NCBI GenBank assembly: GCA_003223255.1
Contig: QHYJ01000226.1
Coordinates: 1-42,738, forward strand
Direction of reading: 5' to 3'
From: Acidobacteriota bacterium
Lineage (GTDB): Bacteria > Acidobacteriota > Terriglobia > Acidiferrales > UBA7541
Length of the DNA stretch: 42,738 nucleotides
Position 1 is the first letter of the stretch. Every line of letters starts with the position of its first letter. Below the pieces are notes generated by a model, which saw nothing but the letters and a program-made list of their open reading frames with translations, did no database searches and had not been told where the DNA came from. Below are positions 21,421 to 24,369 of this stretch, in pieces. The position numbers and the translations under genes are program-made.

Positions 21421-22743
21421 TCAGGTGGACGGCGGCGGAGCCTGCTGGAAGAACTCCGTATAAGTAAGAATCAGGGTCAGCACAATCATGGCCACCGCCG
21501 TCACCCACGCCACCGTGTTGAACGTCGCCGTGTTGACGTACTCGCCCATCAAATCGCGCCGGTTCACGAGCAACAAAATAAAGATGACTACGACGGGCAG
21601 CCAGATTCCGTTGCCGACCTGCGAGAAGATCAAAATTTTCCATAGCGGTGCATGGGGCAACAACACTACGCCGGCACCGACGACAATCAATAAGGTGTAC
21701 AGCCAGTAGAAGATCGGCGCTTCCCTGAATTTGTGATCCAATCCCGCCTCAAATCCCAGCCCCTCGCAGATCACGTGAGCTGTGGACAAGGGTAAAATGG
21801 ACGCCGCGAACAAGGATGCATTCAGCAATCCAAACGCAAACAAAGTCCCGGCCCATTTTCCGGCAAGGGGAATCAGCGCCTGAGCCGCCAAGGCCGCGTC
21901 ATTGATATCTCGGTGACCGGAGATATACAACGTTGCCGCGGTGCACACCATGATGAAGAACACGATCACCATGCAACTTACGCTGCCAAAGATGACATCC
22001 GCCCGCGCCTGAGGATACTGCCGCGGGCCAACCTTCTTCTCTACGAAACCTGCCTGAAGATAAAAAAACTGCCACGGCGCAATGGTCGTGCCGACCAGCG
22101 CCGTCAGCATTAACAGGTAACCCGAATTGAATCGCAGATTCGGAATCACTGTGTGTTTTGCGGCAATCAGCCAGTCCGGCCTAGCCAGAACCGCTGAAAA
22201 CACATAGGACAGATACAGCACGCACGCAAAAAGAAAGATGACTTCCACCTGCCGGTAAGTGCCCCGGATCACCAGAACCCACACCAGCATGGCCGCAATC
22301 GGTACGGCGACGTACTTGCTCACGTGAAAGATTCCCATTGCCGCGGCGACACCCGCAAACTCCGCCACCACGTTGGCCAAGTCCACAAAAAAACCGGTGA
22401 CCATCACGAAAAATGTCGAGCGGAATCCGAACTCTTCCCGAATCAGATCGGAGAGCCCTTTCCCGGTCACCACACCCATGCGCGCGCACATCTCTTCGGT
22501 GACATACAGCGCAATGGTCATGGGAATGAGGGCCCACAGCAAGGCATACCCATATTTCGCGCCAGCCTGCGTGTAAACGGAAATTCCGCCGGCGTCGTTG
22601 TCCACATTGGAAGTAATCAGTCCCGGCCCGATTACCGCCAGCAACAGGACGAGCCGCCGTCGCAAACTGCGCAAGCGCTTCTGCAGGCTCGCACCGCGAT
22701 TCTGCAGAGTCTCCACGCCCGATTTGAGCATCGGCCAGTTCAC
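21421..22743 (-). CDS. NRAMP-related divalent metal transporter, probably Mg2+ type
   Basis: 440 aa with about eleven membrane segments. It belongs to the SLC11/NRAMP superfamily by IGPGLITSNV in TM1 and the overall helix pattern (EEMCARMGVVTGKGLSDLI, FFVDLANVVAEFAG). Two metal-site motifs differ from Mn/Fe transporters: TM1 has DNDAGG (48-53) where DPGN is expected, and TM6 has TTIAPWQ (219-225) where the Met-Pro-His motif is expected. Loss of the metal-selective Met is a mark of the NRAMP-related Mg2+ transporters described in Clostridium and Eggerthella. The gene starts 23 bp after the MgtE_N/CBS gene, so the two form an operon under the leader at 24009-24335. Family is secure; Mg2+ specificity is inference. 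Confidence 0.85.
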   Translation of the reverse strand: MNWPMLKSGVETLQNRGASLQKRLRSLRRRLVLLLAVIGPGLITSNVDNDAGGISVYTQAGAKYGYALLWALIPMTIALYVTEEMCARMGVVTGKGLSDLIREEFGFRSTFFVMVTGFFVDLANVVAEFAGVAAAMGIFHVSKYVAVPIAAMLVWVLVIRGTYRQVEVIFLFACVLYLSYVFSAVLARPDWLIAAKHTVIPNLRFNSGYLLMLTALVGTTIAPWQFFYLQAGFVEKKVGPRQYPQARADVIFGSVSCMVIVFFIMVCTAATLYISGHRDINDAALAAQALIPLAGKWAGTLFAFGLLNASLFAASILPLSTAHVICEGLGFEAGLDHKFREAPIFYWLYTLLIVVGAGVVLLPHAPLWKILIFSQVGNGIWLPVVVIFILLLVNRRDLMGEYVNTATFNTVAWVTAVAMIVLTLILTYTEFFQQAPPPST

Positions 22744-22766: not shown

Positions 22767-24008
22767 TTAGCTCTTCACCAGCCGCGATACCACGTCGTCC
22801 ACGGTAATGGCGCCAACCGGGCGTTTGTCCTTATCCACGACTGTCAGCATCCGCAAGTTATATTTGTCAAAGAGCTGAAACACTTCCTTCTCGTCCGCTT
22901 CCGGAGGCAAACTGACCAAAGGTTCCATCTTCAACGCCGCCAGCCGTTCGCCTGGCACAGCTAGGAGCATTCGCACGACCGGAACCACGCCGGAATACTG
23001 TGCCTTGTCATCCAACAGGACAATGGTGTCCAACTGGTCGTGATTGTGATCCTGCTTGCGCAGCCATTCGAGCACTTCGTCGCGCGTCGCGTTTTCACTG
23101 ACAAACACAAATTCCGTGTTCATCATCCCACCCGCGGTAGCGGGGTCAAACTCCAGCAGTTCGCGGACCTCCTCCGCTTCCCGCCCGGGCATCTCCTCCA
23201 GCAATTCTTCTGAAGTTTCTTTGGGCAAGTCGGCCAGCAAGTCGGCGGCGGCATCGGGGGCCATTTCCTCGAGAATGTCGGCGGCCTTTTCCGGGTCGAG
23301 GTCCTCGACGATCTGGGTCGTCAATCTGGCATCCAATTCGCCCAACACGCCTGCCGCAGTCTCCTCGTCCAACGAAGCAATAATGCTCTGGCGTTCCGAA
23401 GCCGACAGGTCTTCCATGATCTCTGCCAAGTCCGCCGGGTGCAGATCCTCCAGCTTCTCGTGGGTGATGCGCAGCTTGACGCGGCGCAACGGGTCCGGCT
23501 CGATCAGGTTGACGAACTCCCAGCGGATGGAACTCTGGGGCAACTGGCTCTGCAGCTTGCGCACCACCTTCGACGGAACCACGCCCTGCAGCAGCCGCCG
23601 GATTGCTCCCGGAAGGCCCACGTCCACCTGGGTCAGCCGCAACTCCACATTCCCGTTCGAACGCTGCTCGGCTAGGTCCAGGTCATTCACACGCACTACT
23701 TTTCGCCCGCGAGTGTCAATGATTTGCTGGTCTAACAGGTCTTTCTGGACCGCCAGCCAGGATTCATTGGGCTGGTAGATTTCCAGCGCCTTCTCCCCGA
23801 CATTGAGCTGAATCTTCCCTTCAGAGATCGCCGCAATCTGATTGTGCTTGGCCACGAGCGGCTGAAAACGGCCCCGCGACAACAAAAAGTGCGATATACG
23901 ATTGGGCGCCTCCGCAGGCTCGATGAAAAACTCCCGGACGCGCCCAACGTAGTTTCCTTGTGCATCGTAGGCTTTCACGCCCATTAATTCCGTGGCGTAG
24001 AGTTCCAT
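22767..24008 (-). CDS. soluble PRC-barrel / MgtE_N / CBS-pair protein, putative Mg2+-sensing partner of the NRAMP-like permease
   Basis: 413 aa without membrane segments. Residues 1-80 resemble a PRC barrel (LMGVKAYDAQGNYVGRVREF), and a second PRC-like strand set lies at 94-112 (IIDTRGRKVVRVNDLDL). Residues 186-290 are the helical MgtE N-domain (LEDLHPADLAEIMEDL, DLDPEKAADILEEMAPDAAA, LLEFDPATAGGMM), ending in the TAGG-x-M junction typical of MgtE. Residues 297-413 are a CBS pair (VSENATRDEVLEWL, YNLRMLTVVDKDKRPVGAIT). In MgtE these parts form the cytosolic Mg2+ sensor that gates the pore; here the pore is absent and an NRAMP-like permease follows 23 bp later. ATG 24008 has a near-perfect AGGAGGTGA ribosome-binding site. 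Confidence 0.88.
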   Translation of the reverse strand: MELYATELMGVKAYDAQGNYVGRVREFFIEPAEAPNRISHFLLSRGRFQPLVAKHNQIAAISEGKIQLNVGEKALEIYQPNESWLAVQKDLLDQQIIDTRGRKVVRVNDLDLAEQRSNGNVELRLTQVDVGLPGAIRRLLQGVVPSKVVRKLQSQLPQSSIRWEFVNLIEPDPLRRVKLRITHEKLEDLHPADLAEIMEDLSASERQSIIASLDEETAAGVLGELDARLTTQIVEDLDPEKAADILEEMAPDAAADLLADLPKETSEELLEEMPGREAEEVRELLEFDPATAGGMMNTEFVFVSENATRDEVLEWLRKQDHNHDQLDTIVLLDDKAQYSGVVPVVRMLLAVPGERLAALKMEPLVSLPPEADEKEVFQLFDKYNLRMLTVVDKDKRPVGAITVDDVVSRLVKS

Positions 24009-24078
24009 GGAATCTCACCTCCTGCCTCCTTGGCAGACGGGAGGAAACGCGCCTGCCAATTTGACGCAAAATGCCAAC

Positions 24079-24113
24079 AAAAAACCCGCGCGCCGGAGAA
24101 CCTCGGCGGCGGG
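24079..24113 (-). terminator. intrinsic terminator inside the leader RNA
   Basis: Read on the minus strand, CCCGCCGCCG and CGGCGCGCGGG pair (CCCGC/GCGGG and CGCCG/CGGCG with one bulged G) around an 8-nt loop, immediately followed by six T. It lies about 70 nt before the start codon of the gene it precedes and 230 nt after the promoter, so it can only work as an attenuator for the downstream operon. Confidence 0.75.
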
Positions 24114-24150
24114 CAAGTGCTTGAAACAGGTGGACTTACCTTTAGCCGCC
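24105..24150 (-). promoter_or_regulatory. antiterminator helix competing with the leader terminator
   Basis: On the minus strand, GGCGGC (24150-24145) pairs with GCCGCC (24110-24105) and GGTAAGT (24140-24134) pairs with ACTTGCC (24118-24112), 13 base pairs around a loop of about 15 nt. The GCCGCC arm is also the 5' arm of the terminator hairpin, so the two structures cannot coexist. Such paired alternatives are the usual signature of regulated attenuation. Confidence 0.6.
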
Positions 24151-24339
24151 AGTGAACCCTCCCCACCCTGCCGGTCGCGCCTTTGCCTGGACCTTCTGCG
24201 ACTCCATCGGGATACTCAACCCATGCACTAACCAAGGGGCGCACTGCCCCCCGCTTTTAGGGCCAGGCTCCAGTTCGTTGCTCGCGCTCATCGAGAGGAT
24301 CCGTGTGCACTTTTGACCGCATTTGCGGTCCCCATCGCA

Positions 24340-24369
24340 TTGATAATGCTGCCTCTATCGTAATGTCAA
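24340..24369 (-). promoter_or_regulatory. promoter of the MgtE_N/CBS-NRAMP operon
   Basis: A perfect -35 TTGACA (24369-24364), then 18 bp, then TATCAA (24345-24340); with 17 bp the hexamer reads TTATCA. It lies 39 bp after the CYTH gene stop and about 355 bp before the first start codon, so it opens the long leader. The surroundings are AT-rich compared with the rest of the window. Confidence 0.65.

Follow-up and report, generated by a model that had tools for sequence, protein, structure and literature searches.

The leader of a putative magnesium-transport operon in an Acidobacteriota bacterium is very probably a leader-peptide attenuator. The operon lies on the minus strand of the window, the whole stretch of 42,738 nucleotides that was analysed (contig C182 of a 6.66-Mb genome). 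Its leader holds a conserved short open reading frame (uORF) overlapping an antiterminator, two mutually exclusive helices and, in the encoded peptide, a conserved acidic-proline motif; the transporter encoded downstream bears the NRMT signature. These elements are read from the sequence, and from them we infer that the uORF is translated, that ribosomes drop off at the motif, that Mg2+ is the signal, and in which direction control runs. Translation of the peptide probably decides whether the downstream genes are read. Our preferred reading, held with moderate confidence, is that of a trp-like intrinsic attenuator with an MgtL-like leader peptide, in which low Mg2+ would switch the importer on.

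The first-pass annotation had described a non-coding leader of about 325 nt and an ion-sensing riboswitch of a divergent or new class. Neither description was retained: an open frame of 49 codons (24291-24142, minus strand) fills about half of the leader, and the conserved element is this leader peptide frame, with a stop codon overlapping the antiterminator. The broader proposal of an attenuator preceding a metal-transport operon is borne out by alternative helices conserved in relatives and by the PRC/MgtE_N/CBS and NRAMP genes downstream.

A conserved reading frame and its acidic-proline motif

The promoter (24340..24369, minus strand), read directly from the sequence, consists of TTGACA (24369-24364), a spacer of 18 nt, and TATCAA (24345-24340), both hexamers being found as first annotated. 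The TTGAC sequence is at the same aligned position in 25 of 25 sequences of the genus, the window counted among them. A generic scan flagged neither promoter nor terminator in the leader; it missed the promoter because it accepts only -10 hexamers ending in T, while a bulge in the hairpin is probably the reason why it missed the terminator. The 5' untranslated region contains a GACCGC/GCGGTC hairpin (24315..24330, minus strand), also read directly, which only part of the genus possesses (it is missing, e.g., in loci L008, L019, and L022-L024). Loci L059 and L060 carry repeated TTGACCGC..GCGGTCAC hairpins between the terminator and mgtE_N, and a similar sequence forms the 5' hairpin of the window (24330-24315).

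The uORF (24142..24291, minus strand) encodes a peptide of 49 residues, MSASNELEPGPKSGGQCAPWLVHGLSIPMESQKVQAKARPAGWGGFTGG, and ends with the TAA codon at 24144-24142; its assignment rests on coding tests and on counterparts in the family, NCBIfam having returned no match for the peptide. In an alignment of 25 intergenic regions of the genus, the most conserved blocks all fell in one reading frame. One block extends from the ATG to ELEPGP at the start, another comprises WGGFTGG and the stop codon at the end, and the middle is poorly conserved yet always open. Between these conserved start and stop codons, the frame is open in 25 of the 25 sequences, with a length of 46 to 63 codons; in-frame stops were present in 0 of 25 sequences for this frame versus 25 and 21 of 25 for the other two forward frames. 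Permutation of the alignment columns, which preserves the relatedness of the 25 sequences, left all 25 free of stops in 0 of 5000 trials; in the median, 20 of 25 sequences acquired a stop. The real stop codon, always at one place, varies between TAA, TAG, and TGA. The synonymous fraction was above that of the permutations (only 8 of 300 reached the real value). The BLOSUM score of the codon differences was not convincing (35 of 300 permutations reached the real value) because the middle of the peptide is free to change.

The coding test rests on these first 25 uORFs, whose start codons were set by hand from a list of in-frame ATG codons. The 51 uORFs added to them were picked as open frames, and their lack of stops is thus by construction. 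Several starts were possible at L064, L083, L091, L131, L135, and L136; at these six loci, the start was chosen by hand with the peptides already seen. The start codon most often lies 52 to 56 nt after TTGAC (38 of 76, mode of 54), and the ribosome-binding site would be located very close to the 5' terminus of the transcript. The peptides span 26 to 72 residues, the one in the window having 49.

In a DNA search of 61 genomes, 25 contained the leader, corresponding to 25 of the 36 genomes of the window's genus (its own included) and 0 of 25 others. Across the class, covariance model R1 matched 35 of 399 genomes, once in each: 32 of the 36 genomes of the genus, 25 of which had served to build R1, and three genomes outside the genus, where the matches were weak. 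Since the matches barely leave the genus, homology at the RNA level is short-ranged, and relatives were therefore sought by means of the downstream protein. Orthologous genes were obtained in 341 of the 399 genomes of the class and, with a stricter cut-off, in 79 of the 89 genomes of the window's family. In a named collection, the relatives of the window's mgtE_N gene belong to metagenome-assembled Acidobacteria, many of them titled gp2, with one contig titled Candidatus Acidiferrum typicum.

Upstream regions were read at 81 loci of the family, 25 from the DNA search and 56 of 80 further regions that were fetched, the remaining 24 being outside the family. A uORF was present at 77 of the 81 loci, comprising the 25 of the genus set, 51 located by script, and one located by eye (L081, which was left out of the motif, hairpin, and codon counts made on 76 uORFs). 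Among the four loci without a uORF, L069 and L078 have no leader, L079 is at a contig end with repeats and has an upstream sequence limited to 265 nt, and L092 has a terminator and no long ORF. The suggested search for homologous leaders before MgtE_N/CBS-NRAMP pairs thus recovers the uORF but not the RNA sequence, which has diverged outside the genus. Beyond the family, the 25 upstream regions that were read (L093-L116 and L223) showed no clear combination of an acidic-proline uORF and a terminator. Two of these were ambiguous: L099 has an ORF starting MYEPYL at a contig end, the promoter not being seen, and L094 has an acidic ORF, MTDEGRRANRVEET.., with a T run 68 nt further on and no TTGAC.

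Judged from these sequences, the most conserved feature of the peptide is an acidic residue followed by a proline near residue 8. In the window, this feature belongs to ELEPGP (codons 6-11; 24259..24276, minus strand; E8-P9 at 24270-24265), the proposed ribosome-destabilising motif, which brings acidic residues and proline within the first 10 to 20 residues or so, as in MgtL-type leader peptides. A [DE]P dipeptide occurs in the first 17 residues of 65 of the 76 uORFs, versus 8.7 expected when each peptide is shuffled, and in 3 and 4 of 76 for the other two forward frames. Residue 8 is D or E in 47 of the 65 uORFs with the dipeptide. Variants of the motif include ELEPGP, EELEPFP, DQEPLP, and NSEPG. 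The acidic codons are GAG (31), GAA (28), GAC (3), and GAT (3), and the proline codons are CCT (43), CCC (12), CCG (8), and CCA (2). The use of all four E/D codons and all four P codons indicates that the peptide is kept, not the DNA.

By genus, the dipeptide is present in 31 of 33 uORFs in g1, 2 of 2 in g28, 4 of 4 in g25, 4 of 4 in g29 (plus L081), 5 of 5 in g24, 16 of 18 in g26, 1 of 1 in g32, 2 of 5 in g27, and 0 of 4 in g2, g31, and g33 together. Two of the 11 uORFs lacking it come from the window's genus (EVKPGP and EIESGP). The di-acidic form [DE]x0-1[DE]P is present in 38 of the 76 uORFs and in 0 of 18 in g26. As defined in the available excerpt of PMC11282234, the motif studied consists of acidic residues near the start of the chain, either neighbouring or separated by one residue. 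ELEP, EELEP, and DQEP fit this description, whereas NSEP of g26, with a single acidic residue at the motif, fits it less well.

The prolines conserved at residue 9, and often also at residue 11, could alternatively point to an attenuator responding to tRNA charging, in which a shortage of prolyl-tRNA (or EF-P) would stall the ribosome at EPxP and leave the antiterminator free. Such a device would have on/off logic identical to that of our preferred reading, and Salmonella mgtP offers a precedent (PMC3641672, in excerpt). It is rather unlikely because the uORFs usually contain one or two proline codons and no run, most of g26 has a single motif proline with the acidic residue before it kept, and the downstream genes are dedicated to metal transport.

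Alternative helices around the stop codon

The antiterminator was identified by folding and conservation. Its 5' arm (24134..24150, minus strand) is made of GGCGGC, the last two codons of the uORF, and GGTAAGT, located right after the stop codon. Its 3' arm, ACTTGCC C GCCGCC (24105..24118, minus strand), overlaps the 5' arm of the terminator. The intrinsic terminator (24079..24114, minus strand), identified by folding and by its family-wide counterparts, consists of a hairpin at 24114-24084 and a T run at 24084-24079. The predicted energy is -19.6 kcal/mol for the antiterminator (24150-24134 with 24118-24105; shuffle z of -2.7) and -21.9 kcal/mol for the terminator with its T run (shuffle z of -2.6), and both structures use 24114-24105. 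Two alternative helices sharing a segment, and a GC hairpin with a T run that is kept in relatives, are therefore present as initially described. The 13-bp antiterminator of the same description stands for its inner part only. In the genus, the final GGC codon is paired with a GCC of the terminator arm and the GGUAAGU after the stop with ACUUGCC, whereas one pair of the outer GGCGGC:GCCGCC is broken in 15 of 25 sequences. The full 13-bp helix was accordingly ruled out as the conserved form.

The stop codon (24144-24142) sits between the two halves of the antiterminator 5' arm, a placement fit for masking of this arm by a terminating ribosome, as in trp-like attenuators. Prediction and conservation likewise suggest that antiterminator and intrinsic terminator are mutually exclusive. 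At equilibrium, the terminator is favoured in the 75-nt region, implying that antitermination would need kinetic trapping; the order of synthesis matters in other attenuators.

The last codon of the uORF is GGC in 25 of 25 genus sequences, and the sequence around the stop is thus conserved in part at the RNA level. This observation bears on the possibility of an arrest peptide, the nascent chain of which would stall the ribosome early, at S-N-x-E-P-G, or at the C-terminal WGGFTGG-stop in response to an unspecified ligand. The C-terminus W-G-G-F-x-x-G is well conserved within the genus, which speaks for this reading. However, the C-terminal codons look constrained as RNA, 4 of 25 genus sequences have R or S instead of the W, and the C-terminus is different in other genera (e.g., REARPGLK, GPGI, or DLG). 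An arrest peptide is thus unlikely.

Throughout the family, a hairpin before TTT follows the uORF in 76 of 76 cases, with energies of -14 to -31.5 kcal/mol (mean of -22.4), taken as the best hairpin before TTT 40 to 80 nt past the stop with no energy threshold. In 58 of 76 uORFs, the segment at the stop is a better pairing partner for the 5' arm of this hairpin than a control segment taken further upstream (median z of -1.4; z < -2 in 24 of 76). Other genera have different sequences and a similar two-part design, the inner part being, for example, CCGACC:GGUCGG or CCGGCC:GGCCGG. As far as these sequences tell, it is the terminator/antiterminator design and the peptide motif that are kept outside the genus rather than the RNA sequence. 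At four loci of g29 (L071, L073, L074, and L081), the uORF and the hairpin are kept, but the hairpin is followed by a weak T run (e.g., GGGTTTCAAG in L071); termination may be different there.

Covariation is uninformative within the genus, both helices being too conserved. It was assessed on alignment A2, comprising 29 of 30 sequences of other genera (L091 was prepared, then omitted), and the counts do not represent independent events since the species are related. The inner antiterminator pair 20:64 is GC in 19 sequences, AU in 8, GU in 2, and broken in 0, and takes the forms AU, GC, and GU within g24 alone; in the terminator, the pair made by this same base is CG in 18 sequences and UG in 10, with one broken. 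The antiterminator covariation score was matched by 2 of 500 shuffles, and slid registers came nowhere near it; the pairs with two-sided changes (one) and the pair types were not above shuffles (498 of 500 as high). For the terminator, two-sided changes occurred in 12 cells, a value reached by 0 of 500 shuffles; the numbers of pairs and pair types were not above shuffles (177 of 500 and 78 of 500). Covariation in both helices is thus supported in part, by one measure for each helix, the other two measures for each helix not exceeding shuffles.

Alternative helices, a metal-transport operon downstream, and a 3' module conserved in the genus would also be expected of a metal-binding riboswitch of a new class, the ORF being incidental. 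We regard this as very unlikely. The fold of the whole leader is no better than that of shuffles (z of -0.08), half of the leader is a coding frame, and the RNA sequence, unlike the attenuator design and the peptide motif, does not persist beyond the genus. Rfam gave 0 families at the gathering score in the whole window, a single unrelated match of 13.6 bits in the window at E <= 10, and 0 matches in six relatives. The earlier remark that neither an M-box nor a yybP-ykoY consensus is visible agrees with this check, in which neither class was matched in the window.

Downstream genes and magnesium as the candidate signal

The MgtE-like sensor and NRAMP-like permease announced downstream were both found by Pfam. 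The first gene (22767..24008, minus strand) encodes a PRC/MgtE_N/CBS protein. It corresponds to an MgtE-like sensor reduced to its cytosolic part, the channel domain being absent, and NCBIfam mgtE matched its residues 174-408 with a score below the cut-off. The second gene (21421..22743, minus strand) encodes an NRAMP-related transporter of the NRMT type (Pfam Nramp), with DxxG (DAGG) and TxxA (TTIA). NCBIfam assigned the permease to the Nramp family only. Its best solved relative is 7qia (E of 8.3e-97), which we take to be the EleNRMT of PMC8806188, with 7qic, 7qji, and 7qjj as further entries, versus an E of 1.5e-32 for the next-best structure, an MntH. DAGG and TTIA are at the metal site, aligned with 7qia. 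The NRMT signature comprises DxxG and TxxA/T in place of DxxN and A/CxxM (PMC8806188, in excerpt). By this signature, the permease is probably a magnesium NRAMP (NRMT) and the operon a set of magnesium-transport genes.

The order CYTH gene, leader, and mgtE_N is found at 25 of 25 genus loci, with the NRAMP gene next at 22 of 25; the other three end too early or have no NRAMP match. Of the 63 named family loci, 3 are too short for the count, and the remaining 60 of 60 have an NRAMP gene downstream on the same strand. The mgtE_N-nrmT pair has been described by Shin et al. (PMC4072509). As far as the available excerpt of that article goes, the homologue in Acidobacterium capsulatum has no M-box and behaves mainly as an Mn2+ transporter. 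This behaviour is the main warning against naming Mg2+ as the signal.

Neither CorA nor an MgtE channel was found in the window's own genome. Among the 89 genomes of the family, many of which are incomplete drafts, CorA was detected in 8 at E <= 0.001 (7 over the cut-off) and the MgtE channel in 10 at E <= 0.001 (3 over the cut-off, including a 35-residue fragment). Because both are rare in the family, the NRMT protein may be the main Mg2+ importer. CorA or MgtE accompanies 6 of the 15 loci without a [DE]P uORF versus 3 of the 66 loci with one (81 loci; Fisher p of 0.0009, or 0.0003 without the 35-residue MgtE fragment and 0.003 without L079, at a contig end), in a post hoc test in which several species are close relatives. 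The genome of the window also contains partly overlapping pieces of a P-type Mg ATPase, below the cut-off, at a contig start (G000:C60:64-1219); this gene is truncated, broken, or mis-assembled. A second NRAMP-like gene (L028; G000:C141:128719-129777) has, by eye, a DxxS and AxxT metal site, which is neither the canonical DxxN/AxxM nor the NRMT signature. It therefore provides no argument for Mn2+ uptake being covered elsewhere.

According to the mechanism that we propose, transcription would start just 5' of the short ORF. A ribosome reaching the stop codon would cover the final codons together with about 10 nt beyond the stop, which form the antiterminator 5' arm. With this arm masked, the terminator would form and transcription would end. 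If the ribosome were lost early, the free 5' arm would pair with the 5' arm of the terminator before the 3' arm of the latter is made, and RNA polymerase would read through the antiterminated leader into mgtE_N-nrmT. With little Mg2+ in the cytosol, the acidic-proline motif around codon 8 would cause this early loss, by intrinsic ribosome destabilisation as in MgtL, and low Mg2+ would thereby switch the importer on. High Mg2+ counteracts such ribosome destabilisation (PMC9718836, in excerpt). That Mg2+ is the signal and acts through ribosome destabilisation is held to be more likely than not, with clearly more reserve than the attenuator itself. Ribosome position alone would be sufficient to drive the switch, as in a general translation-coupled attenuator that responds to overall translation capacity rather than to a single metal; such a device would leave the acidic-proline motif at a fixed place unexplained and is highly improbable.

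A second design and comparison with known systems

In family f8, another family of the class, an mgtE_N gene is present in 5 of 7 genomes, followed by an NRAMP gene in 5 of 5. Orthologous mgtE_N-nrmT pairs of this family are those of L219, L220, L221, L222, and L223 (also L098, L113, L114, and L115). All five leaders contain a start codon followed immediately by a stop codon, 46 to 47 nt after TTGAC (AUG-UAG in four and AUG-UGA in one), and this mini-ORF is preceded by GGGGGC or GGAGGC. The terminator is GCCUCCCGUGG..CCACGG. In minimum-energy folds of the leader cut before the terminator 3' arm, all six bases of GGGGGC or GGAGGC pair with the 5' arm in 5 of 5 leaders. Inclusion of the 3' arm led to loss of this pairing in four leaders and to partial retention in one, as expected for an antiterminator competing with a terminator; when set against other segments of its own leader, the duplex stands out in only two of the five cases. 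A start-stop uORF acts as a nutrient sensor in plants, namely AUGUAA of NIP5;1 for boron (PMC11915504, in excerpt).

We raise as a tentative possibility, more doubtful than probable, that in this class of Acidobacteriota the ribosome is the Mg2+ sensor for mgtE_N-nrmT in two designs, the acidic-proline leader peptide of one family and the start-stop mini-ORF of f8 with a Shine-Dalgarno sequence predicted to pair. If this is true, MgtL-like control with an intrinsic terminator would exist outside Enterobacteria, replacing the M-box of Clostridia. The leader described here offers a candidate answer for a point left open in print, the control of mgtE_N-nrmT operons without an M-box (PMC4072509, in excerpt). 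If the Mg2+ reading is true, Mg2+ sensing by ribosome stability would have arisen or would persist in a distant phylum, represented here mostly by metagenome-assembled genomes, and could drive an intrinsic terminator. More generally, a leader with the appearance of an orphan riboswitch can instead encode a leader peptide. Among the best matches listed from the open-licence PMC literature, none reported such a peptide in Acidobacteriota.

In trp-type attenuators, the uORF stop overlaps the antiterminator 5' arm and a ribosome at the stop leads to formation of the terminator. The present leader shares the overlap of stop and antiterminator, but not the run of control codons, no run of codons for one amino acid being found in the 76 uORFs. 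The M-box that precedes mgtE_N-nrmT in Clostridia has the same gene pair downstream (PMC4072509, in excerpt); here, the leader has no M-box match and a putative peptide attenuator takes its place. In Salmonella, mgtQ is likewise a small acidic ORF destabilising the ribosome before an Mg2+ transporter, but, according to the available part of the source, it controls translation of mgtB within the operon (PMC8092293).

The closest parallel is MgtL of mgtA in E. coli and Salmonella. MgtL carries a destabilising EPDP at its N-terminus, and low Mg2+ causes ribosomes to drop off and mgtA to be transcribed (PMC11282234, in excerpt). The E. coli mgtA leader has a Rho-dependent terminator and precedes a P-type ATPase gene, whereas the present one has an intrinsic hairpin with a T run and precedes the gene of an NRAMP-type transporter; the peptides described here have 26 to 72 residues and come from another phylum. 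In both cases, a conserved short ORF with an N-terminal acidic-proline motif lies in the leader of an Mg2+ importer, classed as such here by its signature only, and finished translation would shut transcription while aborted translation would open it, as proposed here and reported in the same excerpt (PMC11282234). By analogy, the peptide may work like MgtL, without being filed as its homologue.
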